Of a DNA stretch of 38,086 nt, positions 18,261 to 35,156 are shown piece by piece. The notes below the pieces were generated by a model. That model did no database searches and was not told the origin of the DNA. It saw only the letters and a program-made list of their open reading frames with translations. Positions within the stretch are counted from its first letter, which is position 1. The number at the start of each line of letters is the position of its first letter. The stretch lies in contig JAFZBK010000040.1 of assembly GCA_017561825.1 (NCBI GenBank), positions 1 to 38,086 of the forward strand, in the 5' to 3' direction. The translations under genes were made by a program, and so were the position numbers. Source of the stretch: Prevotella sp. (GTDB lineage Bacteria > Bacteroidota > Bacteroidia > Bacteroidales > Bacteroidaceae).

Positions 18261-19180
18261 GTTGTATGTAATACTTTTTCGGCAATTCTTAGTTTCGCGC
18301 TTCTGCTGCGTGGGTTTTCTTGCTGTTCCTCATTATTGGGCACGATCACTTTTCCGTTCACGGCCTTGAAGGGAGTGTCAATTCTCCCGTAGAAATCTTG
18401 TTTTATCTTCCCCTCTGTGTTGCCCGCCTTCATGACATTCTTCACGATGCGGTCTTCCAGACTATGGTAGGTGATGACTGATAGGCGTCCGCCTGGTCTG
18501 ATCAGGTCGGTGGCTGCCAGCAACATCTCTTTCAGTGCGTCCATCTCGTGGTTCACCTCGATGCGCAGTGCCTGGAACATCCTGGCGGCATCTTTCTTCT
18601 CGTGTTCCCGCTGGAATAGGTGCTCAGTGACATGTAGAAGATCGTGTGTGGTCTCAATGGGTTTGCTTGCCCTAGTCTTCACGATGGCTGCTGCAATCCG
18701 TCTGGCGCTCTTCAGTTCCCCATAGAGGTAGAAGATGTCGGCCAGTTGCTGCTCATCGGCCTTGTTCACGATCTCTGCAGCCGTGGTTCCCCCTTTTGTG
18801 TTCATTCTCATATCGAGTGCGGCATCGAAGCGGAATGAGAATCCGCGTGTCTCATCATCAAGATGATGGCTCGATACCCCCAGGTCGGCCAGCAGACCGT
18901 CTATCTGCTCCACGCCGTAGTAGCGCATCCAGTTGCGCAGGTAGCGGAAATTACTTCTTACGAAGGTGAACCGCTCATCACCTGGAATATTCCTCTCTGC
19001 GTCTGCGTCCTGGTCGAAGCTGTACAGATGACCGCCCTTACCCAGTCGCCGCAGTATCTCTCTACTATGCCCGCCACCGCCGAACGTTACATCTACATAG
19101 ATGCCGTCGGGACGGATCGCTAATCCGTCAACACTCTCCTTCAAGAGCACCGGTACGTGATACACACTGTCATCTATCAT
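18257..19180 (-). CDS. rsmH: 16S rRNA m4C1402 methyltransferase
   Basis: RsmH (MraW) methylates N4 of C1402 in 16S rRNA using SAM. The 307-residue product has HVPVLLKESVDGL at the N-terminus, the SAM loop VDVTFGGGGHSREIL, DLGVSSHHLDD, RGFSFRFDAALDMRM and the C-terminal YHSLEDRIVKN and PRSRSAKLR segments, all family hallmarks. The start at 19180 lies inside a 7-bp tandem repeat that begins at the mraZ stop codon; the repeat offers several ATGs, but only this one opens the long frame directly into DDSVYHVPVLL. Confidence 0.97.
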   Translation of the reverse strand: MIDDSVYHVPVLLKESVDGLAIRPDGIYVDVTFGGGGHSREILRRLGKGGHLYSFDQDADAERNIPGDERFTFVRSNFRYLRNWMRYYGVEQIDGLLADLGVSSHHLDDETRGFSFRFDAALDMRMNTKGGTTAAEIVNKADEQQLADIFYLYGELKSARRIAAAIVKTRASKPIETTHDLLHVTEHLFQREHEKKDAARMFQALRIEVNHEMDALKEMLLAATDLIRPGGRLSVITYHSLEDRIVKNVMKAGNTEGKIKQDFYGRIDTPFKAVNGKVIVPNNEEQQENPRSRSAKLRIAEKVLHTT

Positions 19181-19204
19181 TTATCATTTGTCATTTATCA
19201 TTTA
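19170..19204 (-). repeat. Heptamer array at the mraZ/rsmH junction
   Basis: On the minus strand there are five tandem 7-mers: TAAATGA, TAAATGA, CAAATGA, TAAATGA, TAGATGA. The first begins with the mraZ stop codon TAA; the fourth contains the rsmH ATG. Each unit carries an overlapping start/stop (ATGA), and because 7 is not a multiple of 3, the array puts start and stop triplets into all three frames. Confidence 0.9.
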
Positions 19205-19669
19205 GACGTCTCTCGTCTCTGACGCTGACGTCGCCATCACTCTCTCCAGTGCTTTCCCAAAGTCATCTGGATCCATGAACGGCTTCTCGGTCTTGGCGCT
19301 GCTCCATATCTCGATGGTGTCGCCCATACCGATGAATTTGATGCCCTGCTCAATGCCGGCCATCTTCAGGTAACGCTTGGGTATCAGGAATCTACCATTG
19401 CCATCCAGCGTCACCAGTTCCACATCACTCACGAACTGACGGTAGATTTCCTGCTCTTCGCGGTTCCAGCGGTTCAGGCTCATCCGCATCGTGTCCATCT
19501 GCTCGTTCCATACCGATTCCGGATAGAGCACCAGACATGGCTGGAACACGTCCTTTCGCATCACCAACGATTCCTCGCTCGCTGCCTGTAGCACCTTGCG
19601 GAATATCGCGGGAAGGAAAACACGTCCTTTCGCATCTGTTTTTGCTTCTATATTACCTAAAAATCGCAT
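19202..19669 (-). CDS. mraZ: Transcriptional regulator MraZ
   Basis: MraZ is the SpoVT/AbrB-fold repressor of the dcw cluster and binds short direct repeats upstream of itself. The 155-residue product begins MRFLGNIEAKTDAKGRVFLP (first AbrB-like half, DxxxR) and repeats the motif in LDGNGRFLIPKRYL (second half). It is the first gene of the cluster. A -7 box and three 10-bp repeats lie upstream, so autoregulation is likely. Confidence 0.97.
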   Translation of the reverse strand: MRFLGNIEAKTDAKGRVFLPAIFRKVLQAASEESLVMRKDVFQPCLVLYPESVWNEQMDTMRMSLNRWNREEQEIYRQFVSDVELVTLDGNGRFLIPKRYLKMAGIEQGIKFIGMGDTIEIWSSAKTEKPFMDPDDFGKALERVMATSASETRDV

Positions 19670-19697
19670 GCGTACTTATTAAATATGAATTCGGCTT

Positions 19698-19705
19698 CAA
19701 AGATA
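19698..19705 (-). promoter_or_regulatory. Likely -7 box of the dcw cluster promoter
   Basis: TATCTTTG on the minus strand matches TAnnTTTG and lies 28 bp before the mraZ start. No clear -33 TTTG is found at the usual spacing; that region is taken up by the three MraZ-like repeats. A second match, TAAATTTG (19747-19740), lies just upstream of the repeats and could be an alternative promoter. Confidence 0.65.
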
Positions 19706-19710
19706 CAACT

Positions 19711-19740
19711 TTTCCTCCACTTTCCACCACTTTTCTCCAC
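19711..19740 (-). promoter_or_regulatory. Candidate MraZ operator: three 10-bp direct repeats
   Basis: On the minus strand the sequence reads GTGGAGAAAA, GTGGTGGAAA, GTGGAGGAAA in exact 10-bp phase, running on into AGTTG. Registered differently this is AAAGTGG plus 3 nt, close to the mycoplasma MraZ site (AAAGTGK-N3, repeated) and of the same spacing as the E. coli TGGGN-N5 repeats. It abuts the -7 box, where a bound repressor would block polymerase. Confidence 0.75.
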
Positions 19741-19815
19741 AAATTTATCAAAAACCTGCAAAATTTCTTGATTCTTTACACATTTTGGCGGTTTTGTGCA
19801 ATAATAGAATCGAGA

Positions 19816-19871
19816 AAGGAGGAAGGAGGTCAAAGGAACTTGGTCAAAGGGACTCGGTCAAAGGGAGGGAA
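19816..19871. repeat. Heptamer array between mraZ and glsA
   Basis: Eight consecutive 7-mers can be read: AAGGAGG, AAGGAGG, TCAAAGG, AACTTGG, TCAAAGG, GACTCGG, TCAAAGG, GAGGGAA. The first seven all end in GG, and the TCAAAGG units alternate to give a 14-bp period. It lies in the gene-free gap between the divergent mraZ and glsA. Confidence 0.8.
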
Positions 19872-19887
19872 ATAATAAAAATCACGC

Positions 19888-20063
19888 CAGGGCTTTGATG
19901 CCCTGAGCGTACCTTAATGAACGAGCGACGAGTAGGAGCGGTTGAGCCCCTCCATATAGGGAGGGGATGGGGGTAGGTGGATGTCTCTTTTGCCTCTTTT
20001 CTCTGCGCCAGAGAAAAAGAGGGGAAAAAGTTTCTTTTCTCTGCGCCAGAGAAAAAGAGGGGA
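19888..20063. repeat. Cluster of REP-like hairpins
   Basis: There are four hairpins in a row. They are CAGGGC-N6-GCCCTG (19888-19905), CCCCTCC-ATATA-GGGAGGGG (19947-19966, running into a G-rich tract), and two near-identical copies of CTTTTCTCTG-CGC-CAGAGAAAAAG followed by AGGGGA (19994-20025 and 20032-20063, 38 bp apart). G-rich hairpins of this look are common between Bacteroidetes genes. I see no gene in this stretch. Confidence 0.7.
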
Positions 20064-20174
20064 TGGGTTTTTGTAGCCCAAAAGAAAAATAACGGAAAAT
20101 GATTGTCCCAAATAAAGACAAAACATTTTTCTTATTTTTTTCATCAAAAAGACACATATTTCCAAATTATTGTG

Positions 20175-20182
20175 TATTTTTG
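20175..20182 (+). promoter_or_regulatory. -7 box of the glsA promoter
   Basis: TATTTTTG matches TAnnTTTG and lies 18 bp before the chosen start at 20201. No -33 TTTG is seen at 19 bp. Its position excludes the upstream in-frame ATG at 20099. Confidence 0.6.
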
Positions 20183-20200
20183 CATACTGTTTCTAACATC

Positions 20201-21028
20201 ATGGATCAAATAACTGAAAAAACAGTCGATGTAGAGAGCATCCTGAAAGCTAAGATGGGCAGTAAGGCCAAATGGGTACCATCCCCGCTGGTCAGCTGGC
20301 TCAAGCATATCTTGCACCAGGATGAAGTGAACAGATACCTGTGGGAGAGTCGTCATCTCACAGGCACTGAATGGCTTGAAGAGTGCGTACGCTACCTCGA
20401 TATGACTCTCGAGTTGGAGGGAGAGGAGAACCTTCCTGACAAGGATGACGGCAAGTTATACACCTTTGTCAGCAATCATCCCCTCGGCGGTGCCGACGGT
20501 GTGGCCCTGGGCAGTATTATCGGTCGCCACTACGACAGTCGTTTCCGTTACCTCGTGAACGATATCCTGATGAACCTTCCTGGTCTTGCACCCCTCTGCA
20601 TCCCCATCAATAAAACAGGTAAGCAGAGTCGTAACTTCCCCGCCATGGTGGAAGCAGGCTTCCAGAGCGATAACCATATGTTGATGTATCCCGCAGGACT
20701 CTGTTCGCGGCGTATCAACGGAGAGATACACGATCTGCCTTGGAAGAAGACCTTCATCACCAAGAGCGTGGAATATCAGCGCGATGTGGTGCCAATCCAT
20801 TTCGGAGGACAGAACTCAAACTTCTTCTACCGTCTCAGTGGTTTTTGCGATAAACACATCAAGAAGGTGAATATCGCCATGTTGTTCCTCGTAGATGAGA
20901 TGTACAAGAATGTGCACAAGACCTTCCGCGTGAGCATCGGTAAGCCGATACCTTGGCAGACCTTCGACAAATCGAAAACACCAGCACAATGGGCACAGTA
21001 TGTGCAGGACATTGTCTATCAACTATAG
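20201..21028 (+). CDS. glsA: PlsC-like acyltransferase, probable glycine-lipid O-acyltransferase GlsA
   Basis: The 275-residue product has the 1-acylglycerol-phosphate acyltransferase fold: FVSNHPLGGADGVALG (90-105) carries the catalytic His93 and Asp99. The spacing is H-x5-D rather than the usual H-x4-D. It is followed 13 bp later by a GNAT acyltransferase of the GlsB type. In Bacteroides such a pair makes glycine (serine-glycine) lipids: GlsB N-acylates glycine with a 3-hydroxy fatty acid and GlsA adds a second chain to the hydroxyl. The start ATG at 20201 is chosen because it follows the -7 box. The acyltransferase call is firm; the GlsA role is inferred from the pairing. Confidence 0.8.
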   Translation: MDQITEKTVDVESILKAKMGSKAKWVPSPLVSWLKHILHQDEVNRYLWESRHLTGTEWLEECVRYLDMTLELEGEENLPDKDDGKLYTFVSNHPLGGADGVALGSIIGRHYDSRFRYLVNDILMNLPGLAPLCIPINKTGKQSRNFPAMVEAGFQSDNHMLMYPAGLCSRRINGEIHDLPWKKTFITKSVEYQRDVVPIHFGGQNSNFFYRLSGFCDKHIKKVNIAMLFLVDEMYKNVHKTFRVSIGKPIPWQTFDKSKTPAQWAQYVQDIVYQL

Positions 21029-21041
21029 AACTTCAACAACC

Positions 21042-22034
21042 ATGGAACAAGAGATTATCAGTCCTGTCAGCAAAGAGCTGCTGAAGAGTGAACTCACCCG
21101 TGAGCGACAGCTCCGAATGACCAACAAAAGCAATAACGAGATCTATGTAGTGACCGCACACCAGGCACCCAACGTCATGCGTGAGATCGGTCGATTGCGT
21201 GAGATCGCCTTCCGCGAGGCAGGCGGTGGCACGGGCAAGGAGGTGGACATCGATGAGTTCGATACCTGCGACAACTGCTATAAGCAGCTTATCGTGTGGA
21301 ATCCCGACGAGGAGGAGATCATCGGCGGCTACCGCTATCTGATGGGTACCGACTGGGAACTGGATGACAACGGACAGCCTATCCTCGCCACCAGTCATAT
21401 GTTCCATTTTTCTGAAAAATTCTTACGCGACTATATGCCCTATACCGTTGAGTTGGGCCGTTCTTTCGTCTCACTTGAATACCAGAACGTACAAAAGAAC
21501 ACCAAGAGCATCTTTGCGTTGGATAACCTCTGGGACGGTCTTGGAGCCCTTACCGTGCTCTTCCCCAATCTGAAATATTTCTTTGGTAAGATGACCATGT
21601 ACCCCTCGTATGTGCGTAAGGGCCGTGACATGATTCTCTACTTCCTGAAGAAGCATTTCGACGATAAAGAGAACTTAATTACGCCGATGAAACCGCTCGT
21701 TTTGGAATCTGACCCCAATGAACTAGAGCGCCTTTTCAGCGGGAATAATTTCAAGGAGGACTACCGTATTCTGAACTCTGAGGTTCGTAAGATGGGTTAC
21801 AATATTCCACCATTGGTAAACGCCTATATGGGTCTATCTCCCACAATGAAACTCTTTGGTACCGCCATTAACTATGGATTTGGTGATGTGGAAGAAACGG
21901 GTATTTTGATTGCTGTTGATGAAATTCTTGAACAAAAGCGCGTTCGTCACATCGACAGCTTTATCAAAGAGCATCCCGATGCATTAAAGATCACCAGCGG
22001 TGCGAATAACGTTATTTACAAGGAAAAAGAGTAA
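21042..22034 (+). CDS. glsB: GNAT-type N-acyltransferase, probable GlsB
   Basis: This 330-residue product belongs to the hemolysin-like/OlsB-related acyltransferases. Diagnostic segments are GRLREIAFREAGGGTGKEVDIDEFD, read here as GRLREIAFREAG then GTGKEVDIDEFD, followed by IIGGYRYLMG and TVELGRSFV. Its likely reaction is transfer of a 3-hydroxyacyl chain to the amino group of glycine. An upstream in-frame ATG at 21000 lies inside glsA, so the start at 21042 is preferred. The gene ends just before a palindrome array and converges on dgt. Confidence 0.82.
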   Translation: MEQEIISPVSKELLKSELTRERQLRMTNKSNNEIYVVTAHQAPNVMREIGRLREIAFREAGGGTGKEVDIDEFDTCDNCYKQLIVWNPDEEEIIGGYRYLMGTDWELDDNGQPILATSHMFHFSEKFLRDYMPYTVELGRSFVSLEYQNVQKNTKSIFALDNLWDGLGALTVLFPNLKYFFGKMTMYPSYVRKGRDMILYFLKKHFDDKENLITPMKPLVLESDPNELERLFSGNNFKEDYRILNSEVRKMGYNIPPLVNAYMGLSPTMKLFGTAINYGFGDVEETGILIAVDEILEQKRVRHIDSFIKEHPDALKITSGANNVIYKEKE

Positions 22035-22042
22035 TTGAAATT

Positions 22043-22103
22043 GTTCCCAGCATGGGAATGAATTGTTCCCACGTTGGGAATAAAGTGTTCCCATGTTGGG
22101 AAT
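22043..22103. repeat. Three-copy array of the 17-bp palindrome, 22-bp period
   Basis: Copies at 22043-22059, 22065-22081 and 22087-22103 have the same TTCCCA-nnn-TGGGAA arms as the array at 377-459 (the last two as TTCCCA-nnT-TGGGAA) and the same exact 22-bp spacing. Central triplets are GCA, CGT and TGT, so the last two copies are in the opposite orientation to most at the first locus. The last copy abuts the dgt stop codon (22104-22106); the first begins 8 bp after the glsB stop. A bidirectional terminator role is plausible. Confidence 0.9.
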
Positions 22104-23441
22104 TTACACAATCGGCAGACTTATACCGTTGATCTTCTGATAGACGTCGAGGGCGTAGATGTCGGTCATACCGCTGATATAGTCGATGACTGCCATGAGG
22201 CGTGCCTCGAGGTTGGGGTCGTTGATGTCGTACTGACTGCTGACACGGTCGATCAATTGGCGGGAATAGAAGCGGTCGGGATAGAGGATGGCCTCGGTCA
22301 TGGCATCCATCAGTGTAGCCATAATCTTGTAACCACTGAGTTCCACGTCAAGAACGGGCTTACTGCGGTAGATCTTCTGTACGGATATCTGCGTACATTG
22401 CTGGTATGCGATTCGTTGTGGCTCATCGATGTGGTCAATGAGCGAGCCACTCATGGTACCGTTCATGATTTCTTCCTCGTGGCGCATGAACGCCTCCACG
22501 CAAGCACTCTCGAGTTTGCCAATGGCACATGCCCGCATATACACCACCTTTTCATTATCATCATCGATACCCTCATCGCAGATGCGTTGACGGATCTTGT
22601 TTTGACTCTCCACATCAAAGAAGCTCAGGAGCATGTGTTCTGTTTCCTCGAAAGAGAGGATCTTCAGTTTATGCGCGTCCTCAATGTCCATGATCTCGTA
22701 GCAGATATCATCAGCTGCCTCTACTAAATAGACTAATGGATGACGGGCATAGCGTAGAGGTTCACCTTCGGCTGAGAGTCGCAAAATGCCCATTTCATCG
22801 GCGATTCGCTGATAGAAGGGAAGCTCGGTAGTGAAGAATCCGAACTTTCCTTTCTTACCTGCTGCAGCAGAAACGAAGGGGTATTTTACAATAGATGCGA
22901 GGGTAGAGTAGGTCATGACAAACCCACCATCACGACGACCTTTGAAACGATGGGTAAGCAAGCGGAAGGCATTGGCGTTACCCTCGAAATGCGTGATGTC
23001 GTTCCAGAATGTTTCGCTGACCTGTGACTTCAATTTTATCCCGTTCCCCTCGGTGAAGAAGGTCTGAATGGCCTTCTCGCCACTATGACCGAAAGGAGGA
23101 TTACCCAGGTCATGCGACAGGCAAGCGGTACTCACGATGGTGCCTATCTGCGGGAAGAGGGTGTTGGCGAGTTCTGGCTGTTTGCTGAGAACGCGGTGAG
23201 CCACATCATTACCCAATGACATACCCACACTGGCCACTTCGAGCGAGTGGGTAAGGCGGTTGTGTACGAAGATGCTGCCCGGAAGCGGGAACACCTGTGT
23301 TTTGTTCTGCAGTCGGCGGAACGGTGCAGAGAAGATCAAACGGTCGTAGTCGCGCTTGAACTCCGTACGATCGTCGTGCCGCTCACTGTGACGGTTCTCC
23401 TGTCCCAGTCGTTTGTTGGATATCAGTTGTTGCCAATTCAT
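22104..23441 (-). CDS. dgt: dGTP triphosphohydrolase (HD superfamily)
   Basis: The enzyme cleaves dGTP (and in relatives other dNTPs) to deoxynucleoside and triphosphate. In the 445-residue product, NRLTHSLEV contains the first metal His (65) and CLSHDLGNPPFGHSGE contains the HD pair (110-111); VEAADDICYEIMDIEDA holds a further Asp ligand. The start is set at 23441 (MNWQQL) because the -7 box lies immediately upstream; the longer frame to 23528 would begin before the promoter. It is divergent from dut. Confidence 0.93.
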   Translation of the reverse strand: MNWQQLISNKRLGQENRHSERHDDRTEFKRDYDRLIFSAPFRRLQNKTQVFPLPGSIFVHNRLTHSLEVASVGMSLGNDVAHRVLSKQPELANTLFPQIGTIVSTACLSHDLGNPPFGHSGEKAIQTFFTEGNGIKLKSQVSETFWNDITHFEGNANAFRLLTHRFKGRRDGGFVMTYSTLASIVKYPFVSAAAGKKGKFGFFTTELPFYQRIADEMGILRLSAEGEPLRYARHPLVYLVEAADDICYEIMDIEDAHKLKILSFEETEHMLLSFFDVESQNKIRQRICDEGIDDDNEKVVYMRACAIGKLESACVEAFMRHEEEIMNGTMSGSLIDHIDEPQRIAYQQCTQISVQKIYRSKPVLDVELSGYKIMATLMDAMTEAILYPDRFYSRQLIDRVSSQYDINDPNLEARLMAVIDYISGMTDIYALDVYQKINGISLPIV

Positions 23442-23445
23442 GTTG

Positions 23446-23476
23446 CAAAGATACGATTTAGTGAGTGAATAACAAA
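23446..23476 (-). promoter_or_regulatory. dgt promoter
   Basis: On the minus strand TTTG (23476-23473), a 19-nt spacer and TATCTTTG (23453-23446) match the Bacteroidetes consensus exactly. The -7 box ends only 4 bp before the start codon, so the mRNA is leaderless or nearly so, or initiation is further downstream than chosen here. Confidence 0.75.
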
Positions 23477-23492
23477 AATTATTTGTGTTTTC

Positions 23493-23523
23493 TTTGTATT
23501 GTGCGCAGTTCTTCGTATTTTTG
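23493..23523 (+). promoter_or_regulatory. dut promoter
   Basis: TTTG (23493-23496), a 19-nt spacer and TATTTTTG (23516-23523) match the consensus exactly. The start codon of dut follows 27 bp later. The -33 boxes of this and the dgt promoter are only 16 bp apart, so the two may influence each other. Confidence 0.85.
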
Positions 23524-23550
23524 CACATTGATTTGTAAACCGTTCAAGAC

Positions 23551-23988
23551 ATGATAAAGGTAAAAGTAGTGAACAAGGGGCACCAGCAGTTGCCCGCCTA
23601 TGCCACCCCGCAGAGTGCAGGGATGGATCTCCGTGCAAACCTCGATGAATCCGTGGTATTACAGCCACTGGAGCGACGACTGTTCAAGACGGGTCTGTTT
23701 ATCGCGCTGCCCGAAGGCTATGAGGCACAGGTGCGACCGCGAAGCGGACTGGCCCTGAAGCATGGAATCACGGTATTGAATACTCCTGGCACCATCGATG
23801 CTGACTACCGTGGCGAGGTAGGTGTCTGTCTGATCAACCTCTCGCAGGAACCGTTCGAGATCAACGACGGCGAGCGCATCGCACAGCTGGTCATTGCCAA
23901 GCATGAGCAGGGTGACTTCGTGGTTGTGGAGGAACTTGATGAGACGGAGCGTGGTGCAGGTGGCTACGGACATACTGGCGTTAAATAG
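23551..23988 (+). CDS. dut: Deoxyuridine 5'-triphosphate nucleotidohydrolase
   Basis: dUTPase converts dUTP to dUMP and PPi, keeping uracil out of DNA and feeding thymidylate synthesis. The 145-residue product has the five trimeric-dUTPase motifs in order: AGMDLRA (I), [11 protein letters not shown] (II), [10 protein letters not shown] (III), [11 protein letters not shown] (IV) and [10 protein letters not shown] (V). It is the first gene of a run with the TPR lipoprotein, DUF4292 and EnvC-like genes; the join to the next gene is a heptamer array. Confidence 0.98.
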
Positions 23989-24014
23989 AATTGATAATTG
24001 ATAATTGATAATTG
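23989..24014 (+). repeat. Heptamer array at the dut/TPR junction
   Basis: AATTGAT is repeated three times and then AATTG plus A, starting on the base after the dut stop codon. The last unit contains a TTG (24012) that is in frame with the downstream lipoprotein, although the ATG at 24033 with AAGGAG upstream looks the better start. Confidence 0.9.
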
Positions 24015-24032
24015 AAAAATAAGGAGATGATT

Positions 24033-25781
24033 ATGAGATGTGTTGTAATGACTGCGGTTGCCGTAGTCATGACTTCTTGTGTGTCCATAAAAAGTGGTGG
24101 CACATCTCATTCCACACTCCACACTCCACACTCCTCGCTATCCTTCAACGACTCCCAACGACTGAAATACTTCTATTACGAGGCAATGAAGCTGCAGGAC
24201 CAGGGGAAGTTCGCGGCAGCGTTCGACCTGCTAAAGCATTGCGAGACCATTGATCCGCAAGCAGCAGAGGTGTACTATGCAGAGGCGGTCTATTATGCCG
24301 AGCTGAACAACGATTCGATGGCACTGGCATGCATGAAGAAGGCAGCCGACCTGAACCCGAGCAACGACACCTATCTGGAACGACTGGCCATTACGCATGT
24401 CAATTCACGACAGTTCGATGAGGCAGTGAATGCCTACGAACGACTGTATGCCAACCACAAGGACCGTCTTGATGTGCTGGATATCCTGTTGCAGCTGTAT
24501 AACCAGCAGAAGAACTACGACAAGATGCTGTCAACCCTTGAACTGGTGGAATCCCTAGAGGGAAGTAATGAGCGACTGGCACTTTCGAAAATGCGCATCT
24601 ATTCCGTGCAGGGTAAAAAAGACAAGGAATACGAAACGCTGAAGGAATTGTCTGACAGTCATCCGAACGACATGAACTACCATGTGATGATGGGTAACTG
24701 GCTCCTTCAGAACGACAAGGATGACGAGGCGCTGGAACAGTACAAGTTGGTTCTAGAGGAGGAGCCTGACCATACAGGCGCAAAGATGTCGATGCTCGAC
24801 TATTACCGTACTACAGGTGCCGACTCCTTGGCACAGGTGCTGCAAGAGGAGATGCTGATCAGTCAGAACACCCCTACCAACGATAAGGTGACACTGATGC
24901 GTCAGGTAGTGGCGGATAATGAGCAGTCAGGAGGCGACAGCACACAGGTGCTCTCACTCTTCAAGCGCATCCTGGCCGAGCCGCAGAAGAATGCGGATAT
25001 GTACGAGCTCTATGTGGCATACATGAAACTGAAGCAGATGCCAGAGGACAGTATCAACAGCGTGCTCGAAAAGGCATTGGAGGTAGCACCCGACAATGCT
25101 GGCGTGCGATTCCAATTGGTACAGTCGAAATGGATGAGTCAGGACTATGACACGGTGATTGCCCTCTGCGAGCCCGCTACGGAGTATAACCCCGATGAGA
25201 TGACGTTCTACTACTTCCTGGGTTTGGCACATTTCCAGAAGGATGAGCGCGACAAAGCCTTGGATGCATTGCGCAGGGGTGTGGCGCAGATCAATGAGGA
25301 GAGTAATAAGGATTTCGTGTCTGACTTCTACGCCATCATGGGACAGATCCTGCATGACAAGGGTCTTGATGATGAGGCGTTCGCAGCCTACGACAGCAGT
25401 CTGCAGTGGAAAGATGACAATATCGAGGTACTGAACAACTACGCTTATTTCCTGAGTGAACGGGGCGAACGACTCCAGAAGGCGGAGCAGATGAGCTTCA
25501 GGACCATCAAGGCGGAGCCCACCAACAGTACCTATCTGGATACCTATGCGTGGATCCTCTTCATGCAGGAACGCTACGAGGAGGCGAAGATCTATATCGA
25601 TCAGGCAGTGCAGAACGATTCCGTGCCGAATGCGGTGATCATCGAACATGCAGGTGATATATATGCACTTAATAAGGACATGCAGAAAGCCGTGGAATAC
25701 TGGAAACAGGCGCAGGAAGCGGGCGGCAACAGTAAGGTGCTAATTAGGAAAATCAGACAGAGGAAATATCTTAAGAGGTGA
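24033..25781 (+). CDS. TPR-repeat lipoprotein
   Basis: The 582-residue product has a lipoprotein signal (MRCVVMTAVAVVMTSC, lipid-attached Cys16) and then a low-complexity Ser/His/Thr segment encoded by a 7-bp repeat. The rest is tetratricopeptide repeats, for example the unit beginning AAEVYYAEAVYYAEL and the unit LNNYAYFLSERGERLQKAEQM. It is presumably a periplasmic-facing outer-membrane scaffold. It precedes DUF4292 and envC in the same run, so a cell-envelope role is likely, but no specific function can be read from it. ATG at 24033 is chosen for the AAGGAG six bases upstream; ATG 24027 and TTG 24012 are in the same frame. Confidence 0.85.
   Translation: MRCVVMTAVAVVMTSCVSIKSGGTSHSTLHTPHSSLSFNDSQRLKYFYYEAMKLQDQGKFAAAFDLLKHCETIDPQAAEVYYAEAVYYAELNNDSMALACMKKAADLNPSNDTYLERLAITHVNSRQFDEAVNAYERLYANHKDRLDVLDILLQLYNQQKNYDKMLSTLELVESLEGSNERLALSKMRIYSVQGKKDKEYETLKELSDSHPNDMNYHVMMGNWLLQNDKDDEALEQYKLVLEEEPDHTGAKMSMLDYYRTTGADSLAQVLQEEMLISQNTPTNDKVTLMRQVVADNEQSGGDSTQVLSLFKRILAEPQKNADMYELYVAYMKLKQMPEDSINSVLEKALEVAPDNAGVRFQLVQSKWMSQDYDTVIALCEPATEYNPDEMTFYYFLGLAHFQKDERDKALDALRRGVAQINEESNKDFVSDFYAIMGQILHDKGLDDEAFAAYDSSLQWKDDNIEVLNNYAYFLSERGERLQKAEQMSFRTIKAEPTNSTYLDTYAWILFMQERYEEAKIYIDQAVQNDSVPNAVIIEHAGDIYALNKDMQKAVEYWKQAQEAGGNSKVLIRKIRQRKYLKR
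24111..24134 (+). repeat. Heptamer repeat inside the TPR lipoprotein gene
   Basis: TCCACAC is repeated three times, followed by TCC, covering codons 27-34 just after the lipobox. Gain or loss of one unit would shift the frame, so it could act as an on/off switch; three copies is a low number for frequent slippage. Confidence 0.85.
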
Positions 25782-25805
25782 GAAGTGAGAGGTGAGAAGC
25801 AAGAG
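25778..25805 (+). repeat. Heptamer array at the TPR/DUF4292 junction
   Basis: The units are GTGAGAA, GTGAGAG, GTGAGAA, GCAAGAG. The TPR stop codon TGA (25779-25781) lies in the first unit, and the GTG of the second unit (25785) is in frame with the DUF4292 gene. Three of the four units contain GTGA, an overlapping start/stop. Confidence 0.85.
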
Positions 25806-25826
25806 ATTAGTTATAGAGAAATAGAT

Positions 25827-29489: not shown

Positions 29490-29511
29490 CTCACTTCTTG
29501 ATAGTCAGCAA

Positions 29512-29519
29512 CAAAAGTA
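29512..29519 (-). promoter_or_regulatory. -7 box of the argE-type gene
   Basis: TACTTTTG on the minus strand matches TAnnTTTG, 22 bp before the start codon at 29489. No -33 TTTG is found at the usual spacing. Confidence 0.55.
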
Positions 29520-29593
29520 CGGATTTTTCACGGAATCCCTATCATCCTGACGTTTTTTTTTGCTTTTCTTATCACAATTTCGGAAAAAAGCAT

Positions 29594-29601
29594 TATCTTT
29601 G
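29594..29601 (+). promoter_or_regulatory. -7 box of the acyl-CoA ligase gene
   Basis: TATCTTTG matches TAnnTTTG, 20 bp before the ATG at 29622. The -33 position has no TTTG. It is divergent from the argE-type promoter across a 132-bp gap. Confidence 0.6.
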
Positions 29602-29621
29602 CAATAGAAAAACAAGGGCTT

Positions 29622-31430
29622 ATGCAGAACAACAGCCACCTTTCAGTGCTCGTTCACGAGCAGGCAAAGAAATACGGGGAGAAAACAGCACTGAACTATA
29701 GAGAGTTCGGAAGTCTGAAATGGCAAACGGTTTCTTGGAACCAGTTCTCTGAACGTGTGAAGCAGGTAAGTAATGCCATGCTGAACATGGGTGTGCATGT
29801 ACAGGAGAACATCGGTGTGTTCTCACAGAATACCGTGCAGTCTCTTTATACCGATTTCGGTGCCTTCGGCATCCGTGCCGTCACAGTACCCCTCTATGCC
29901 ACCAGTAGCGAACAGCAGATCCAGCATGTTGTGGGAGATGCGGAGATTCGTTATCTTTTTGTAGGTGAGCAGGAGCAGTATGACAAGGCGCACCGTGTGC
30001 TGCCTTCGTGTCCTACCCTCGAGAAGATTATCGTGTTCGACCGCTCCGTGCGGATGGTGAACGGTGATCCCAGCTCCATCTACTTTGATGACTTTATGCA
30101 GCTGGGCGAGAACCTGCCGCGGCAATCGGAGGTGGAGATGTTGTGGAAGCAGGCCAGTTGGGATGACATAGCCAATATCCTTTATACCAGTGGTACCACA
30201 GGCGACTCAAAAGGTGTGATCCTTACCTACGGACAGTATCATGCTGCTTTTGAGGCGAACGACAAGTGTGTGCCAGTGGGAGAGAACGACCGCGTCATGA
30301 ACTTCCTGCCCATCACGCATATCTTCGAACGCGGATGGCTCATTCTGTGTATGACGGAGGGTGCGGAGATCATCATCAACACCTATCCGAAGGAGATACA
30401 GCAGTCGTTAAAGGAGATGCATCCTACATGTATGTGTGCCGTTCCCCGCTTCTGGGAGAAGGTGTATATCGGCGTGAAGGAGAAGATCGAAAAGGCCAAT
30501 GCCGTGGAACGCAAACTGTTCTACAGGGCTCTTGCTGTAGGAAGAAAGTACCATGCCGAGTTTGTGAGCAAGGGCAAACGTGCACCGCTGCCGCTGAAGC
30601 TGGAGTATGAGACCTTCGACAAGACCTTGTTCTCGTTGGTACGAAAGCAGTTGGGATTGGAGAAGGGTAATATCTTCCCCACAGCAGGTTCGTACGTGTC
30701 GGCCGAGGTAGAGGAGTTTACGCATTCCGTAGGAATCTGCATGATTGTGGGATACGGTTTGACCGAGAGTCTGGCCACGGTGTCGTGCGACCACAAGGGA
30801 GAGCCTTACACCATTGGTAGTGTGGGTCGTCCCATCGAGGGTATTGAGATACGCATCGGTGAGAATGACGAGATCCTACTGAAGGGTCCGACCATCACCA
30901 AGGGCTATTACAAACGTGATGCGCTGAATGCGCAGAGTTTCACAGAGGATGGGTTCTTCAAGACGGGTGATGCTGGCTACCTCAGGAATGGCGAGCTGTT
31001 CCTGAAGGAGCGTATCAAGGAACTCTTCAAGACCAGTAACGGTAAGTATATCGCGCCGCAGATGATTGAGGCCAAGCTGCTGGTGGATAAGTATATCGAA
31101 CAGCTGGCAGTCATTGCCGACCAGCGTAAGTTCGTGTCGGCCCTCATCGTTCCTTCCTTCCCCGAACTGGAGGAATACGCCAAGGACAACCGCATCGACT
31201 TCAAGAAGCATGAGGATCTGTGTCAGAACGAGAGGATCATCCAGATGATTGCCGAACGTATAGAGACCTTACAGCAGCAGTTGGCCAACTACGAGAAGAT
31301 CAAACGCTTCGTGTTACTGCCGAAGCCGTTCACCATGGAGTCGGGCGAGCTCACGAACACGCTGAAGATCAAACGTGCCGTGCTGAACAAGAACTACGCC
31401 GAGCAGATCGAAGAAATGTACAAGGAGTAG
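29622..31430 (+). CDS. fadD: Long-chain fatty acid--CoA ligase (AMP-forming)
   Basis: The 602-residue product activates fatty acids via an acyl-adenylate. The AMP-binding P-loop YTSGTTGDSKGV is at 188-199; VGYGLTESLATVS is the second core motif, and FFKTGDAGYLRNGELFLKERIKELFKTSNGKYIAP, in parts TGDAGYLRNGELFLKERIKE and LFKTSNGKYIAP, covers the hinge and C-terminal domain. The length and the continuation ...PQMIEAKLLVDKYI are typical of the bacterial long-chain (FAA1-like) subgroup. prfB follows 39 bp later. Confidence 0.92.
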   Translation: MQNNSHLSVLVHEQAKKYGEKTALNYREFGSLKWQTVSWNQFSERVKQVSNAMLNMGVHVQENIGVFSQNTVQSLYTDFGAFGIRAVTVPLYATSSEQQIQHVVGDAEIRYLFVGEQEQYDKAHRVLPSCPTLEKIIVFDRSVRMVNGDPSSIYFDDFMQLGENLPRQSEVEMLWKQASWDDIANILYTSGTTGDSKGVILTYGQYHAAFEANDKCVPVGENDRVMNFLPITHIFERGWLILCMTEGAEIIINTYPKEIQQSLKEMHPTCMCAVPRFWEKVYIGVKEKIEKANAVERKLFYRALAVGRKYHAEFVSKGKRAPLPLKLEYETFDKTLFSLVRKQLGLEKGNIFPTAGSYVSAEVEEFTHSVGICMIVGYGLTESLATVSCDHKGEPYTIGSVGRPIEGIEIRIGENDEILLKGPTITKGYYKRDALNAQSFTEDGFFKTGDAGYLRNGELFLKERIKELFKTSNGKYIAPQMIEAKLLVDKYIEQLAVIADQRKFVSALIVPSFPELEEYAKDNRIDFKKHEDLCQNERIIQMIAERIETLQQQLANYEKIKRFVLLPKPFTMESGELTNTLKIKRAVLNKNYAEQIEEMYKE

Positions 31431-31469
31431 CAATCACACATTGCTTCGACAAGAGGAAAGAGAGAAAGA

Positions 31470-32588
31470 ATGATTACACAAGACCAATTGAAGGATGTCC
31501 TCAAACGTGCAGATGATCTGTACCGCTATCTGGACATCGACAAGAAAAAGATAGAATTTGAGGAGGAGGATCTGCGTACGCAGGCGCCCGACTTCTGGGA
31601 GGATCCCAAACGGGCGCAGACGCAGATGAAGAAGGTGAAGGACATCAAGCGGTGGCTGGATGGCTATCAGGAGGTGCGTACCTTGGCTGATGAGCTGCAG
31701 TTGGCCTTCGACTTCTTCCACGATGAGATGGTTACCGAGGAGGAGGTGGATGAGGACTACAACAAGGCCATCGCCGCCATTGAGGATCTGGAACTGAAAA
31801 ACATGCTCCGTCAGAAGGAGGATCCCATGGACTGCGTGATGAAGATCAACTCGGGTGCTGGTGGAACGGAGAGTCAGGACTGGGCTTCGATGCTCATGCG
31901 TATGTATATGCGGTGGGCTGAGGCGCATGGACATAAGGTGACGATCAGTAACCTGCAGGATGGCGACGAGGCGGGCATCAAGAGTGTGACCATGGAGATA
32001 GAGGGTGGTGAATATGCTTACGGATACTTGAAAAGCGAGAACGGTGTGCACCGTCTGGTACGTGTCTCTCCGTTCAATGCCCAAGGTAAGCGCATGACAA
32101 GCTTCGCCTCTGTCTTTGTCTCTCCGCTGGTGGATGATACCATCGAGGTGTATGTTGATCCCGCCAAGCTGTCGTGGGACACCTTCCGCAGCTCTGGCGC
32201 TGGCGGTCAGAACGTGAACAAGGTGGAGTCGGGCGTACGACTGCGTTATTGGTACACGGATCCGGATACAGGTGAGGAAGAGGAAATCCTCATTGAGAAT
32301 ACGGAGACGCGCGACCAGCCTAAAAACAAGGAGCGTGCCATGACCTTGCTGAAATCACAACTCTACGACCGTGCCATGAAGAAACGTCTGGAGGCACAGG
32401 CAAAGATCGAGGCTGGGAAAAAGAAGATCGAGTGGGGCAGTCAGATACGCAGCTATGTCTTCGATGACCGTCGTGTAAAGGATCATCGCACGAATTACCA
32501 GACTACCGATGTGGACGGGGTGATGAACGGAAAGCTCGATGGATTCATCAAGGCCTACCTGATGGAATTCCCGGTGAATGAGGAGTGA
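31470..32588 (+). CDS. prfB: Peptide chain release factor 2, without programmed frameshift
   Basis: RF2 recognises UGA and UAA and triggers peptide release. The 372-residue product has the anticodon-like SPF (200-202) in RVSPFNAQGKRMTSF and the catalytic GGQ (245-247) in SSGAGGQNVNKVES. The N-terminal domain is complete in one frame: at the place where many bacteria have CTT TGA C (+1 frameshift), this gene reads TAT CTG GAC (YLD, residues 20-22). Autoregulation by frameshifting is therefore absent. It is followed by a small membrane-protein gene. Confidence 0.97.
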   Translation: MITQDQLKDVLKRADDLYRYLDIDKKKIEFEEEDLRTQAPDFWEDPKRAQTQMKKVKDIKRWLDGYQEVRTLADELQLAFDFFHDEMVTEEEVDEDYNKAIAAIEDLELKNMLRQKEDPMDCVMKINSGAGGTESQDWASMLMRMYMRWAEAHGHKVTISNLQDGDEAGIKSVTMEIEGGEYAYGYLKSENGVHRLVRVSPFNAQGKRMTSFASVFVSPLVDDTIEVYVDPAKLSWDTFRSSGAGGQNVNKVESGVRLRYWYTDPDTGEEEEILIENTETRDQPKNKERAMTLLKSQLYDRAMKKRLEAQAKIEAGKKKIEWGSQIRSYVFDDRRVKDHRTNYQTTDVDGVMNGKLDGFIKAYLMEFPVNEE

Positions 32589-32634
32589 GGAATGTGAAAA
32601 GTGGAATGATCATCTATAAACTATAAACTAAAAT
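32583..32634 (+). repeat. Partly heptameric spacer after prfB
   Basis: From the prfB stop codon onward the sequence can be read as GAGTGAG, GAATGTG, AAAAGTG, GAATGAT, then CATCTAT, AAACTAT, AAACTAA. The CTATAAA pair (32614-32627) is exact; the earlier units are degenerate. The prfB TGA lies in the first unit. Support is weaker than at the other junctions. Confidence 0.5.
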
Positions 32635-32645
32635 ACGGAAATATT

Positions 32646-32789
32646 ATGAGTCAGAAAAGAAAAGCGCAGCGTGCTCGTCATGAGGCAGAAGTTGCAAAGA
32701 AAGGTAAGGACGTAGTAATGTGGATTATCGTCGCACTGATTGTCTTTGCATTGATCTTCTTGGTGATCAACACCGTTGCCATGATGTAA
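32646..32789 (+). CDS. 47-residue single-pass membrane mini-protein
   Basis: The frame opens with a basic MSQKRKAQRARHEAEVAKKG and continues into one strongly hydrophobic helix (about 24-42, MWIIVALIVFALIFLVI), ending NTVAMM. The positive-inside rule puts the N-terminus in the cytosol. Its TAA overlaps the ATG of the CYTH gene (TAATG), which supports real translation and coupling. No family is recognised. It lies between prfB and a CYTH gene. Confidence 0.75.
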   Translation: MSQKRKAQRARHEAEVAKKGKDVVMWIIVALIVFALIFLVINTVAMM

Positions 32790-33310
32790 TGAGCGGCTTC
32801 GAGATCGAACGCAAGTTCCTCGTGCGAGGAGAAGACTACCGCGACCAGGCATCTGGCAGTATTCGGATCAAACAAGGGTATATTTGCAGCGGACACGGAA
32901 AGACTGTTCGCGTACGTTGCTGTGACCATTGCGGATACCTGACCATCAAGGGTCCTGCGGATGCGTTGGGCATGAAACGGTATGAGTTCGAGAAGGAAAT
33001 ATCACTCGAAGAGGCGGAGCAGCTGATGGCGCTCTGTGAACCAGGGATCATCGACAAGACACGCTATCTGGTGAAAAGTCCCGATGGCGTGCATACCTTC
33101 GAGGTGGACGAGTTCTATGGTGACAATGCCGGACTAGTAATGGCTGAGGTGGAGTTAGGCAGTGAGGAGGAACCGTTCGAAAAACCTGATTTCATCGGTG
33201 ATGAGGTGACAGGTGATAGGCGTTTCCATAACGGTCATCTACGACAGTTCCCCTTCATTCTCTGGCGCGGAACCATACCCAGAGCGTTCCGACACCTAAC
33301 ATTAGAGTAG
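32789..33310 (+). CDS. CYTH domain protein (triphosphate tunnel family)
   Basis: The 173-residue product starts MSGFEIERKFLVRG with the CYTH signature ExExK (Glu5, Glu7, Lys9). It continues with alternating charged strands of the tunnel fold: IRIKQGYI, KTVRVRCCDHCGYLTIKG, KRYEFEKEI, KTRYLV, FEVDEFYG and GLVMAEVEL. Family members hydrolyse inorganic triphosphate or thiamine triphosphate, or cyclise ATP; which one applies here cannot be told. The start at 32789 overlaps the mini-protein stop. The last 56 bp overlap the VanZ-like gene on the other strand. Confidence 0.88.
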   Translation: MSGFEIERKFLVRGEDYRDQASGSIRIKQGYICSGHGKTVRVRCCDHCGYLTIKGPADALGMKRYEFEKEISLEEAEQLMALCEPGIIDKTRYLVKSPDGVHTFEVDEFYGDNAGLVMAEVELGSEEEPFEKPDFIGDEVTGDRRFHNGHLRQFPFILWRGTIPRAFRHLTLE

Positions 33311-33665
33311 CTCCTGTGCTGTTGGCCAGGAAGTCGAGCCATTCGCCACTTCTCCTGCCACCCGTGCAATAGGCCTGAGCCAACTCGATCAGTCCGCTCA
33401 TGATGATGGGAGCAAGCCATCCCCAACGAAGAATCTTCTTCCAGCTGAAGGTGGTGGGTTGGTTCTTGAGGGGGTGCCAACGAAGGTATTCCGTCCAAAT
33501 AACCCCGCAGGTGCAGAGGTAAAGGGCGATATGTGTCCATTTATCGATGAAGCGGATATGACTTAAAGGAGTCTCTGGTATGGGTGCTAGACAGAGTACC
33601 CAGATGGCTGCGAGGCAGCAACAGGAGAGGGGGTACTTTCTGATGTATGGAAGGATGTATCTCAT
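33255..33665 (-). CDS. VanZ-like membrane protein
   Basis: The 136-residue product has about four membrane helices and the VanZ-family landmarks: SHIRFIDKWTHIALY near the second helix and IELAQAYCTGGRRSGEWLDFLANSTGA before the last, read in parts ELAQAYCTGGRRSGEW and DFLANSTGA. VanZ itself gives low-level teicoplanin resistance, but most relatives have no known function. The start at 33665 (MRYILPYIRKYP) is chosen because the -7 box lies just upstream. It converges with and overlaps the CYTH gene. Confidence 0.8.
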   Translation of the reverse strand: MRYILPYIRKYPLSCCCLAAIWVLCLAPIPETPLSHIRFIDKWTHIALYLCTCGVIWTEYLRWHPLKNQPTTFSWKKILRWGWLAPIIMSGLIELAQAYCTGGRRSGEWLDFLANSTGATLMLGVGTLWVWFRARE

Positions 33666-33684
33666 CTTATTGTGAATTTTGGTG

Positions 33685-33692
33685 CAAAAGTA
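33685..33692 (-). promoter_or_regulatory. -7 box of the VanZ-like gene
   Basis: TACTTTTG on the minus strand matches TAnnTTTG and lies 19 bp before the start codon. The -33 box is not evident. Confidence 0.55.
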
Positions 33693-33733
33693 CAATTTTT
33701 CAGTCATTTGACAGACCCAAAGAGTAATAAAAG

Positions 33734-35098
33734 ATGTCAAACAGTTTAGAAAGAGGTAATTTTGGGACGAAGTTAGGGGTGATCCTGGCTACGGCAGGCG
33801 GTGCAGTAGGCTTGGGTAACGTGTGGCGTTTCCCTTACGTGACCGGTCAGAACGGTGGTGCAGCCTTTATCCTGATCTACTTCATCTGTGTCCTGATCAT
33901 GGGTATTCCCGTGATGCTTTGCGAGTTCCTCATCGGTCGTCATGCACAGTCAAATACGGCGCGTGCCTATACCAAACTGGCCAATGGCACACCATGGAAA
34001 TGGGTGGGCTATATGGGGGTGCTCACGGCAGCACTGATCATCGGCTATTACGGGGTTGTGTCGGGCTGGACCTTGCAATATGTGCTGGCTTCTGCCACCG
34101 GACAGCTTCATGGTACGCCAGATGACTTCCGTGCGTTGTTCTCAGAGTTCTCCACCAATCCCATCAAACCGATTATCTGGATGGCATTGCTGGTGGGGAT
34201 GACGCATTACGTCATCGTGCATGGTATTGAGGACGGCATCGAGAAGGCATCGAAGATCATGATGCCTCTACTGTTCATCCTCCTTCTGGTCTTGGTTGGC
34301 TGCTCGCTGATGCTTCCTGGAGCCATGGACGGCGTGGAGTTCCTGCTGAAGCCTGATTTCTCGAAGATCACGGGCAAGACATTTCTCGAGGCGTTAGGAC
34401 AGTCGTTCTTCTCTCTCAGCATCGCGATGGGCTGTCTGTGTACCTATGCCAGCTATTTCAAGCGTGAGACGAACCTCGTGGGCACGGCTTTCCAGATCTC
34501 TATCATCGATACGTTTGTGGCCATCCTCGCGGGCTTGATGATTTTCCCTGCCGCCATGTCGGTAGGTGTGCAGCCTGATAGCGGACCGTCACTGATCTTC
34601 ATCACATTGCCCAATGTCTTTGAGCAGGCGTTTGGGTCGGTACCTGTTGTGCAGTATGTGGTGTCCCTGGCGTTTTATGTCCTGTTATCCATTGCTGCTC
34701 TCACCTCGAACATCTCCCTGCACGAGGTATCTACCTCGTTCCTCAGTGAGGAGCTGCGTATCGGACGACGGAAGGCGGCAACCTTCGTGTCGGTGATGTG
34801 CGTGGTGGTGGGTGCTGTGTGCTCATTGTCGTTAGGCGATTGGGACTGGGCTCGGTTGTTCGGGATGCCGATTTTTGATTTCTTCGATTGGACCACAGCG
34901 AATATCCTGCTGCCGTTAGGCGGATTCTTCACTTGTCTGTTCATCGGCTGGTATGTGGAGCATAAGCTGATTCATGATGAGATCACCAACTGGGGAACCA
35001 GTAACTATCATTTCTTCCACTTGTTCGTCTTTGTGGTGAAATTCGTGTGTCCGCTGTTCATCTTGTTTGTGTTCCTGCATCAGATAGGATGGGTGTGA
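33734..35098 (+). CDS. Sodium-dependent transporter (NSS family), copy 1
   Basis: The 454-residue product is a LeuT-fold symporter. The unwound TM1 with sodium and substrate sites is ATAGGAVGLGNVWRFPY, followed by TGQNGGAAFI and the extracellular-gate and TM2 segments. TM6 to TM8 include SFFSLSIAMGCLCTYASYF and MIFPAAMSVG. About eleven to twelve membrane helices are expected. Bacterial members import amino acids with sodium; the substrate is unknown here. It is followed 55 bp later by a close paralogue. Confidence 0.92.
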   Translation: MSNSLERGNFGTKLGVILATAGGAVGLGNVWRFPYVTGQNGGAAFILIYFICVLIMGIPVMLCEFLIGRHAQSNTARAYTKLANGTPWKWVGYMGVLTAALIIGYYGVVSGWTLQYVLASATGQLHGTPDDFRALFSEFSTNPIKPIIWMALLVGMTHYVIVHGIEDGIEKASKIMMPLLFILLLVLVGCSLMLPGAMDGVEFLLKPDFSKITGKTFLEALGQSFFSLSIAMGCLCTYASYFKRETNLVGTAFQISIIDTFVAILAGLMIFPAAMSVGVQPDSGPSLIFITLPNVFEQAFGSVPVVQYVVSLAFYVLLSIAALTSNISLHEVSTSFLSEELRIGRRKAATFVSVMCVVVGAVCSLSLGDWDWARLFGMPIFDFFDWTTANILLPLGGFFTCLFIGWYVEHKLIHDEITNWGTSNYHFFHLFVFVVKFVCPLFILFVFLHQIGWV

Positions 35099-35100
35099 CA

Positions 35101-35156
35101 AATTGATAATTAAAAATTGAAAATTGACAATTGATAATTAGGATTGAGTATTGATG
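35101..35156 (+). repeat. Eight-unit heptamer array between the two symporter genes
   Basis: The units are AATTGAT, AATTAAA, AATTGAA, AATTGAC, AATTGAT, AATTAGG, ATTGAGT, ATTGATG. The array starts 2 bp after the stop codon of the first symporter and its last unit ends with the ATG of the second (35154-35156). Most units contain TTGA, an overlapping start/stop. Confidence 0.85.

Follow-up and report, generated by a model that had tools for sequence, protein, structure and literature searches.

Tandem arrays of seven-nucleotide units recur at the gene junctions of a 38,086-nucleotide contig of Prevotella sp., a gut bacterium (JAFZBK010000040.1, hereafter the window; it is C62 among the 69 contigs of the draft genome, which totals 2.98 Mb). 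Among named organisms, the nearest relatives of its dut belong to Prevotella and Prevotellaceae. We report here that these arrays are probably parts of small mobile-like elements: the arms of elements that carry a gene of the S23/IVP family (PF05635), the arms of non-coding derivatives, and solo arms. Most of the IVP genes examined are bracketed by such arrays, the two arms of a pair match, the array period is linked to the IVP protein, and both dispersed non-coding copies and element-free sites are found. Heptamer repeats and S23 proteins are each known already, and two puzzles meet in them, a repeat class with no known cause and a protein with no known function. Should the arrays prove to be arms of IVP elements, a single protein and a single 32-bp oligonucleotide would be enough to put both puzzles to the test.

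The sequence-only reading of the window had described arrays with a 7-bp period at several named junctions, inside the TPR gene and, in weaker form, after prfB, and all of these are present (Table 1; gene names were verified with Pfam). A tolerant detector (main score threshold 11, low-complexity and non-primitive units excluded) was applied to 41 stretches of this genome amounting to 831,186 bp (28%). It found 137 approximate arrays of period 7, against 9 of period 6, 15 of period 8 and 19 of period 9, and none of period 7 arose in a Markov-3 control; the excess of period 7 over periods 6 and 8 is therefore real. The 72 arrays of period 14 in the same census are probably for the most part harmonics of 7. 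Exact arrays of at least three copies in an initial sample of 434 kb number 20 for period 7, 1 for period 6 and 0 for period 8, and if the sample is typical the whole genome holds about 490 period-7 arrays. Their units had been taken to be unrelated in sequence; many of them, however, sort into a few box families. Three consecutive units of the commonest family, AATTGAN, match 172 times genome-wide (reversed control, 0) and occur in 85 of the 150 genomes of a genus sample that includes this one, with 0 to 192 matches each. In that sample the reversed control is not a clean null, because a few genomes, among them G139 with 42, account for many of its matches, which probably represent another array family. 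According to a home-made gene caller, 75 of the 137 arrays lie between same-strand genes, which upholds the proposed link to such junctions. Convergent genes flank 11 arrays and divergent genes 7, another 5 sit at the edges of stretches, and 39 have their midpoint in a called open reading frame (ORF), 7 of them crossing its end.

Inverted, unit-matched pairs are conspicuous among the arrays, and one of them, in the relative G083, encloses an S23/IVP gene. The family consists of four-helix bundles of about 120 aa. The four proteins of this genome that were scanned all match it, at 93–108 bits against a Pfam cut-off of 33.8 and at 100–113 against a cut-off of 24 for TIGR02436, and the L185 protein matches the structure 2rld with an E value of 1.6e-40. 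All six PF05635 genes of this genome over the cut-off are enclosed by inverted unit-matched arrays, each with its own unit (Table 1), and 405–513 bp, largely the IVP ORF, separate the arms. One of the two IVP matches of G083 (L180) and three IVP genes of the relative G094 (L186, L188, L191) are likewise enclosed, and three more in G094 have GTTCAAA units mixed with hairpins. These last three (L178, L181, L184) lie within 6 kb on contig C4 of G094, and their flanks combine the GTTCAAA units with 14-nt palindromes (GGCGGCAAAGCCGC). Flanks were scored for inverted matches in 84 IVP ORFs, a set that left out L183, L192, L193 and one of 85 IVP ORFs with a short flank; outside this genome it comprised the best-scoring loci and those in 40 hand-picked regions rather than a random sample. 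Complementary termini scoring at least 16, a trait also of 23S rRNA intervening sequences, surround 60 of the 84 ORFs. Among the controls, that score is seen in 22 of 420 flank swaps, at 6 of 1500 random loci and at none of 53 small called genes; a score of at least 20 is reached by 49 of the 84 and by 9 of the 420.

The 60 bracketed ORFs differ in the period of their arms, which is 8 in 21 cases, 7 in 20, 9 in 6, 10 in 6, 12 in 2 and 11 in 1 (4 unassigned). These periods were placed on a tree of 83 of the IVP proteins (one of the 84, under 80 aa, was dropped), which rests on few columns and has many weak forks. The deep clade A (11 proteins) has period 7 exclusively, mostly with AT-rich units; group C (13 proteins) has period 8 in 12 cases and one unassigned; group D (18 proteins) includes 9 with period 7, whose units are mostly G-rich, 3 with period 8 and 6 unassigned; and group B, the remainder, with a GGAGTTA-like core, has mostly periods 8–12 and a few rows of period 7. 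By parsimony, the 68 labelled rows of the 83 require 16 period changes, compared with a minimum of 29 in 300 shuffles, and period 7 versus the rest requires 5, compared with a shuffle minimum of 13. The period follows the IVP tree, and gene and arms are therefore inherited together. Relatives differ in period as well: we counted 10 period-8 and 4 period-7 arrays in 140 kb of G028; 120 kb of G059 yielded 16, 6, 5 and 6 arrays of periods 9, 10, 8 and 7, respectively, and 60 kb of G004 yielded 6 with period 9 and 4 with period 7. Some of the period-9 rows in these counts may be coding repeats. A 19.9-kb stretch of G081 (L160) has 10 period-9 and 2 period-7 arrays, in a genome with 38 matches to three AATTGAN units. 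As the overall number of IVP genes is related to AATTGAN load with a Spearman coefficient of only 0.30, clade A was tested alone, its presence being cut at E 1e-25 by our own choice. Of the 105 genomes with a clade A IVP, 73 carry AATTGAN arrays, as do 12 of the 45 without it (Fisher p 1.8e-6); among genomes at least 90% complete, the counts are 26 of 44 and 5 of 26 (p 0.0013), kinship being ignored in both comparisons.

Short non-coding copies with terminal inverted repeats also lie at several unrelated loci, as is typical of miniature inverted-repeat transposable elements. One such family occupies five loci of this genome (Table 1), with heptamer arms that differ. Three of its copies, the query included, are full-length BLAST matches with E 3e-8 or better, and the other two are weaker matches recognised by their arms and interior. 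The interiors are 68–84% identical in pairs (shuffled sequences, at most 63%), and the outer flanks of the five copies have no similarity at E 1e-3. A sixth candidate, at L126:806, is less sure, with 63–68% identity. Sites free of an element are found in relatives: a paired 119-bp element of G083 is absent from G007 and G106, where 18–19 bp separates the same neighbours, and G082 has no such pair there in a protein-level alignment; neither G094 nor the window is alignable closely enough at this site. In G081 the same junction holds a different, 206-bp insert with period-9 arms in place of the period-7 pair of G083. All these element-free sites come from other species and are too diverged for a target-site duplication to be read. 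The prfB junction carries unrelated pairs of about 165 bp in G083 and G081 and 33–48 bp without a pair in G082, G106, G033 and L030, G033 having a short ATTAAA-like array. The arrays after dut are AATTGAN in the window, GTTTATA in L044, AATTAGG in L105 and AATTAGT in G083. The differing arrays at these junctions appear to stem from independent events that recurred at one kind of site.

Two further candidate signs were rejected. A second interior, at L015:6535 and L114:5733 (89% identity over 151 bp), was considered as a case of movement, but two paralogous genes carry it at corresponding positions, and the flanked alignment is 66% identical in DNA; it therefore shows no movement to a new site. 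An inner-boundary motif, GAWTAC with two variants, was tried as a mark of solo arrays; present at 13 of the 137 arrays, whatever their kind, against a background of 2%, it is enriched without being general. Separately, the L015:6535-6685 and L114:5733-5881 elements are 89% identical, compared with 66% for the alignment with flanks, and conversion or homing between copies is possible. A called ORF of 464 aa contains, at L126:3060-3132, an inverted AATTGAN pair whose arms are 9 bp apart. At the dut/TPR junction of L170:10469 (G083), L160:10370 (G081) and L042, the 5' end of the TPR gene contains the right arm of a paired element, and this arm codes for the gene's hydrophobic signal-peptide portion (VIIITNFSLLVPNFSFAQ, FTFLSLLSFPSFPISFAQ, ALFTFHLSFFTAFAQ), an apparent exaptation.

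Several observations weigh against the view that the arrays are parts of IVP elements. Solo arms are the majority form and include all the arrays of the window, none of which has a matching partner within 700 bp; in the census, a partner scoring at least 16 within that distance was found for 13 of 137 arrays, compared with 4 of 137 in the null. Twenty-four of the 84 IVP ORFs score under 16, and period-7 arrays are lacking at L192 and L193, matches of this genome that fall under the Pfam cut-off, and at L183 of G083, which is just over it. G016, with an IVP of period 8, has 4 period-7 and 0 period-8 arrays in 60 kb, and G122, also with a period-8 IVP, has 0 arrays in 20 kb. The link between clade A and AATTGAN is strong but not strict, because seven genomes in which no clade A IVP was detected hold 9–192 matches; two of these, G141 and G085, are very rich in AATTGAN (assemblies 81% and 68% complete). 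In the phylum-wide sample, the 30 best-scoring IVP loci include 13 with a score of at least 16, compared with 6 of 150 in the null, and 7 with at least 20, compared with 5 of 150.

The anatomy of the arrays bears on a second explanation, replication slippage, in which the polymerase would slip on a 7-nt footprint and IVP genes would merely sit in repeat-rich gaps. Heptamers dominate the long repeats of many bacteria, and slippage has been put forward as their cause (Mrazek 2007, summarised in PMC4679880). Neighbouring units share changes, AATTGAY in this genome versus AGTTGAY in G094, which shows that units are homogenised, and the laxest threshold yields 79 two-unit stretches of period 7, although periods 6 and 8 then give 149 and 49. 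Slippage would, however, leave copy numbers that fall monotonically, and at the main threshold they do not: period-7 arrays with three, four and five full units number 33, 71 and 19, whereas period 6 in the same DNA falls (5, 2, 2), and the lengths of the 137 arrays peak at 30–33 bp (61 of 137). The median is 4.43 units, identical for all arrays of this genome and for period-7 IVP arms. Nor are substitutions spread over all unit positions in AATTGAN arrays. In 50 of them, positions 1–4 and 6 deviate in 1–3% of units, position 5 in 14% and position 7 in 67%, so variation falls mainly at one fixed position; these arrays were chosen by a fit of at least 82% to AATTGA, which favours those six positions. 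Across 129 arrays of all families the contrast is modest, the most variable position taking 0.349 compared with 0.269 for random spread. Slippage further predicts neither inverted unit-matched pairs around IVP genes nor a period tied to the IVP tree, and we regard it as unlikely. The sequence-only reading had named a mechanism that copies 7-nt units as one possibility; the direction was right, but plain slippage fits the data poorly.

That reading had also proposed that the arrays let ribosomes stop and restart, three 7-nt units placing a stop and a start in every frame since 7 mod 3 is 1. Some features of placement agree: an array is present in 27 of 98 same-strand gaps of 20–59 bp, 24 of 78 array-junction pairs lie at most 3 bp from the upstream stop, and the AATTRA family in same-strand gaps is in sense orientation 25 times and antisense 7 times. 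At four junctions the reading had also placed a start codon inside the array; for rsmH the ATG at 19180 is indeed within it, whereas the NSS2 start lies beyond its array; the in-array starts of TPR (TTG at 24012) and DUF4292 (GTG at 25785) were only the first possible starts of a mechanical ORF list, and ATGs follow downstream of the arrays at 24027 and 25827. The frame argument is weakened by relatives whose arrays, of the same kind, have periods 8, 10 and even 9, a multiple of 3. Arrays within ORFs and between convergent and divergent genes, arrays that are pyrimidine-rich in the sense direction (23 of the 75 in same-strand gaps) and inverted pairs around non-coding interiors also speak against a stop-and-restart spacer, which we consider highly improbable. 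Because of their sense bias, AATTRA arrays may nevertheless influence expression. Taken together, the arrays look unlike products of slippage and unlike a translation device.

A third explanation would have the elements act as RNA, the arms pairing in the transcript, RNase III cutting them and IVP binding RNA with no DNA-binding role. The S23 family is held in common with the 23S rRNA intervening sequences, of which that of Coxiella ends in a stem of 28 bp and is a substrate of RNase III in vitro (PMC4990558), and paired arms are complementary, some being perfect copies in register (L026:19212/19296). On the other side, the IVP elements of this genome, judged by eye, adjoin or sit in protein-coding sequence, between or inside protein genes (23S rRNA genes lay outside the search), some pairs share their unit and not the unit order (L185), and solo arms cannot form a stem. 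On this evidence we think it improbable that the elements work at the RNA level only.

Returning to IVP elements as the source of the arrays, we propose that the spreading unit would be an S23/IVP gene with its two inverted tandem arrays. A typical period-7 arm has five AATT boxes 7 nt apart, joined by GAN, in 32 bp; 29 of the 50 AATTGAN arrays begin at the first A and 24 finish at the last T of AATT. The structures 2rld and 2gsc contain five chains each. TRAP is a ring protein that wraps tandem triplets, and by analogy with such rings an IVP pentamer could read the five boxes, recognising the array as DNA or RNA and helping the element to spread. An S23 protein of Xanthomonas is a toroidal homopentamer (work cited in PMC4990558). 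The five-box count suits period 7 only, arms of period 8–10 being 29–32 bp long with about 3–4 units as detected, and some cyanobacterial arms are longer; these points weigh against the IVP-element reading. One IVP flank in G109 (L220) carries a very long period-8 array (score 165.5), far beyond the usual arm. Pairing and spacing would outweigh exact sequence, so that units could drift together within one element, and gene junctions would be sites that tolerate insertion rather than places where arrays serve translation restart.

The closest known parallel is REPIN/RAYT, in which one protein gene is tied to its own repeat family and the repeats lie mainly in extragenic DNA, either singly or as inverted pairs; as far as the relevant passages go, co-evolution of protein and repeat was proposed and singlets were read as remnants of pairs (PMC3116915). 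By the same analogy, the solo arms may be remnants of pairs. The systems differ in the protein, a four-helix bundle here and a Y1 tyrosine transposase there (no RAYT search was made here), in the arms, which are tandem arrays of 7–12-nt units rather than palindromic repetitive extragenic sequences (three G094 loci that mix units with 14-nt palindromes excepted), and in the several IVP copies per genome. The 23S rRNA intervening sequences with an S23 ORF share the protein family and complementary termini, and their mobility was proposed and left unexplained in the part of PMC4990558 consulted. The elements described here differ in lying in protein-gene neighbourhoods, in several copies and with non-coding derivatives, and in having tandem arrays of period 7–12 as termini. 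Avd of diversity-generating retroelements has a fold homologous to S23 (PMC10053308, from the passage on Avd), and the L182 protein of this genome weakly matches the Avd and bAvd models, below both cut-offs (reverse transcriptase and template or variable repeats were not looked for).

Heptamer repeats are known in cyanobacteria under the name of short tandemly repeated repetitive (STRR) sequences, and the sequence-only reading knew of no description for the present group. MacGregor (2015, PMC4679880), in the passages concerned, reports them in five Bacteroidetes: TAACTGA in Beggiatoaceae, cyanobacteria and those five, with a role in translational regulation suggested for marine Beggiatoaceae; TAACTGA is a rotation of TGATAAC, one base off the TGATAAT found here. 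GGGNATC arrays of Xanthomonas and Nostoc are described, in excerpts of Rehm (2015, PMC4692102), as generally without association with mobile elements, and in Xanthomonas some form nearby inverted pairs. Geobacter metallireducens has 16 'class 3' sites, of which 15 consist of five heptamers in tandem, depicted as hairpin-like pairs (PMC2700814, in the portion on these sites). Compared by description only, and within those passages, the known arrays are likewise largely intergenic, GGGANTN has a core with variable positions, and regulation, G-quadruplexes or slippage were proposed for them. The passages of PMC4679880, PMC4692102 and PMC2700814 name no S23 gene, and none of the open-access matches listed (a list without bioRxiv preprints) ties heptamer arrays to S23/IVP genes. 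The IVP-element reading would supply a cause for a bacterial repeat class that lacks one.

We advance a wider claim more tentatively, as an idea that may well prove wrong: S23/IVP rings would cause a large share of the bacterial heptamer repeats across Bacteroidota, Cyanobacteria and other phyla, and a single class of elements would include, as special cases, the 23S rRNA intervening sequences and perhaps the Avd part of diversity-generating retroelements. The IVP family, without a known catalytic domain, would read tandem box arrays (at period 7, five boxes by five subunits) and spread them with its own gene, as non-coding passengers and as solo arms. S23/IVP was found in 157 of 198 sampled genomes of the phylum. 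Sixteen of 20 S23-bearing plasmid records, from cyanobacteria, Gemmatirosa and Azospirillum, were scored as well, and they add to the case for IVP elements as the source of the arrays: among the 16 IVPs, the inverted-flank score is 20 or more in 9 and the period-7 score is 10 or more in 13, with arm units that include GGGAGTA, GGGAACA and AAAAGCT; the swapped-flank null is high here (up to 29.5) because the units are alike. On the cyanobacterial plasmids L312, L313 and L322 the IVP gene lies between cas6 and cas4 (two) or between cas10 and a Cmr3-family gene (one). The array flanks suggest that IVP genes among cas genes are insertions and not cas genes, and if this is true, IVP genes in CRISPR-cas or other operons should be taken as parts of those systems only with caution.

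The arrays of the window are listed in Table 1; no Rfam family matched in it. At the mraZ/rsmH junction, the relative G094 has a related array and none was recognisable by eye in 14 other aligned loci. G094 also carries an array at its dut/TPR junction and an AGTTGAY-type array at NSS1/NSS2. Stretches similar to the 14-mer array behind mraZ, of GGTCAAAGG and GACTCGG, occur at L119:5006 and L021:10572. The unit family of the dut/TPR array is common to the arms of the IVP element on contig C13 of this genome (L185), and the TPR/DUF4292 array, which overlaps the TPR stop, has the unit type of the arms of group D IVP genes. The array inside the TPR gene, whose coding strand reads SHSTLHTPHSSLS, resembles by eye the right arm and inner boundary of the non-coding family (GTGGAGTG-AGATATG); with its AGATGTG boundary it looks, from its letters, like one remaining arm of that family.

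Table 1. Arrays of the window, IVP genes enclosed by arrays and copies of the non-coding family in the same genome
Feature	Position or locus	Strand	Unit and remarks
mraZ/rsmH junction array	19167..19204	-	AAATGAY, five boxes; starts at mraZ stop codon
mraZ-acyltransferase gap array	19828..19866	+	14-mer (2 x 7) GGTCAAAGGGACTC
dut/TPR array	23989..24018	+	AATTGAN, four AATT boxes; directly after dut stop
Array inside TPR gene	24101..24134	-	GGAGTGT on minus strand (array at 24108-24134), then inward AGATGTG
TPR/DUF4292 array	25774..25805	+	AGAGGTG/AGAAGTG, five boxes by eye (detected span 25774-25797)
Weak array over prfB stop	32576..32606	+	GAATGAG/GAGTGAG; score 9, under main threshold 11
Weak array before gene next to prfB	32614..32633	+	CTATAAA; score 10.5
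NSS1/NSS2 array	35101..35139	+	AATTGAN, six AATT boxes
Enclosed IVP genes of this genome	L179, L182, L185, L187, L189, L190		
Non-coding family copies	C13, C11 (two), C50, C1		59-61-nt interior

Three arrays of 22-bp units, a repeat class different from the heptamers, also lie in the window, at 362-467, 22038-22103 and 37749-37832, and the first two have palindromic cores (GGGAAC...TTCCC).

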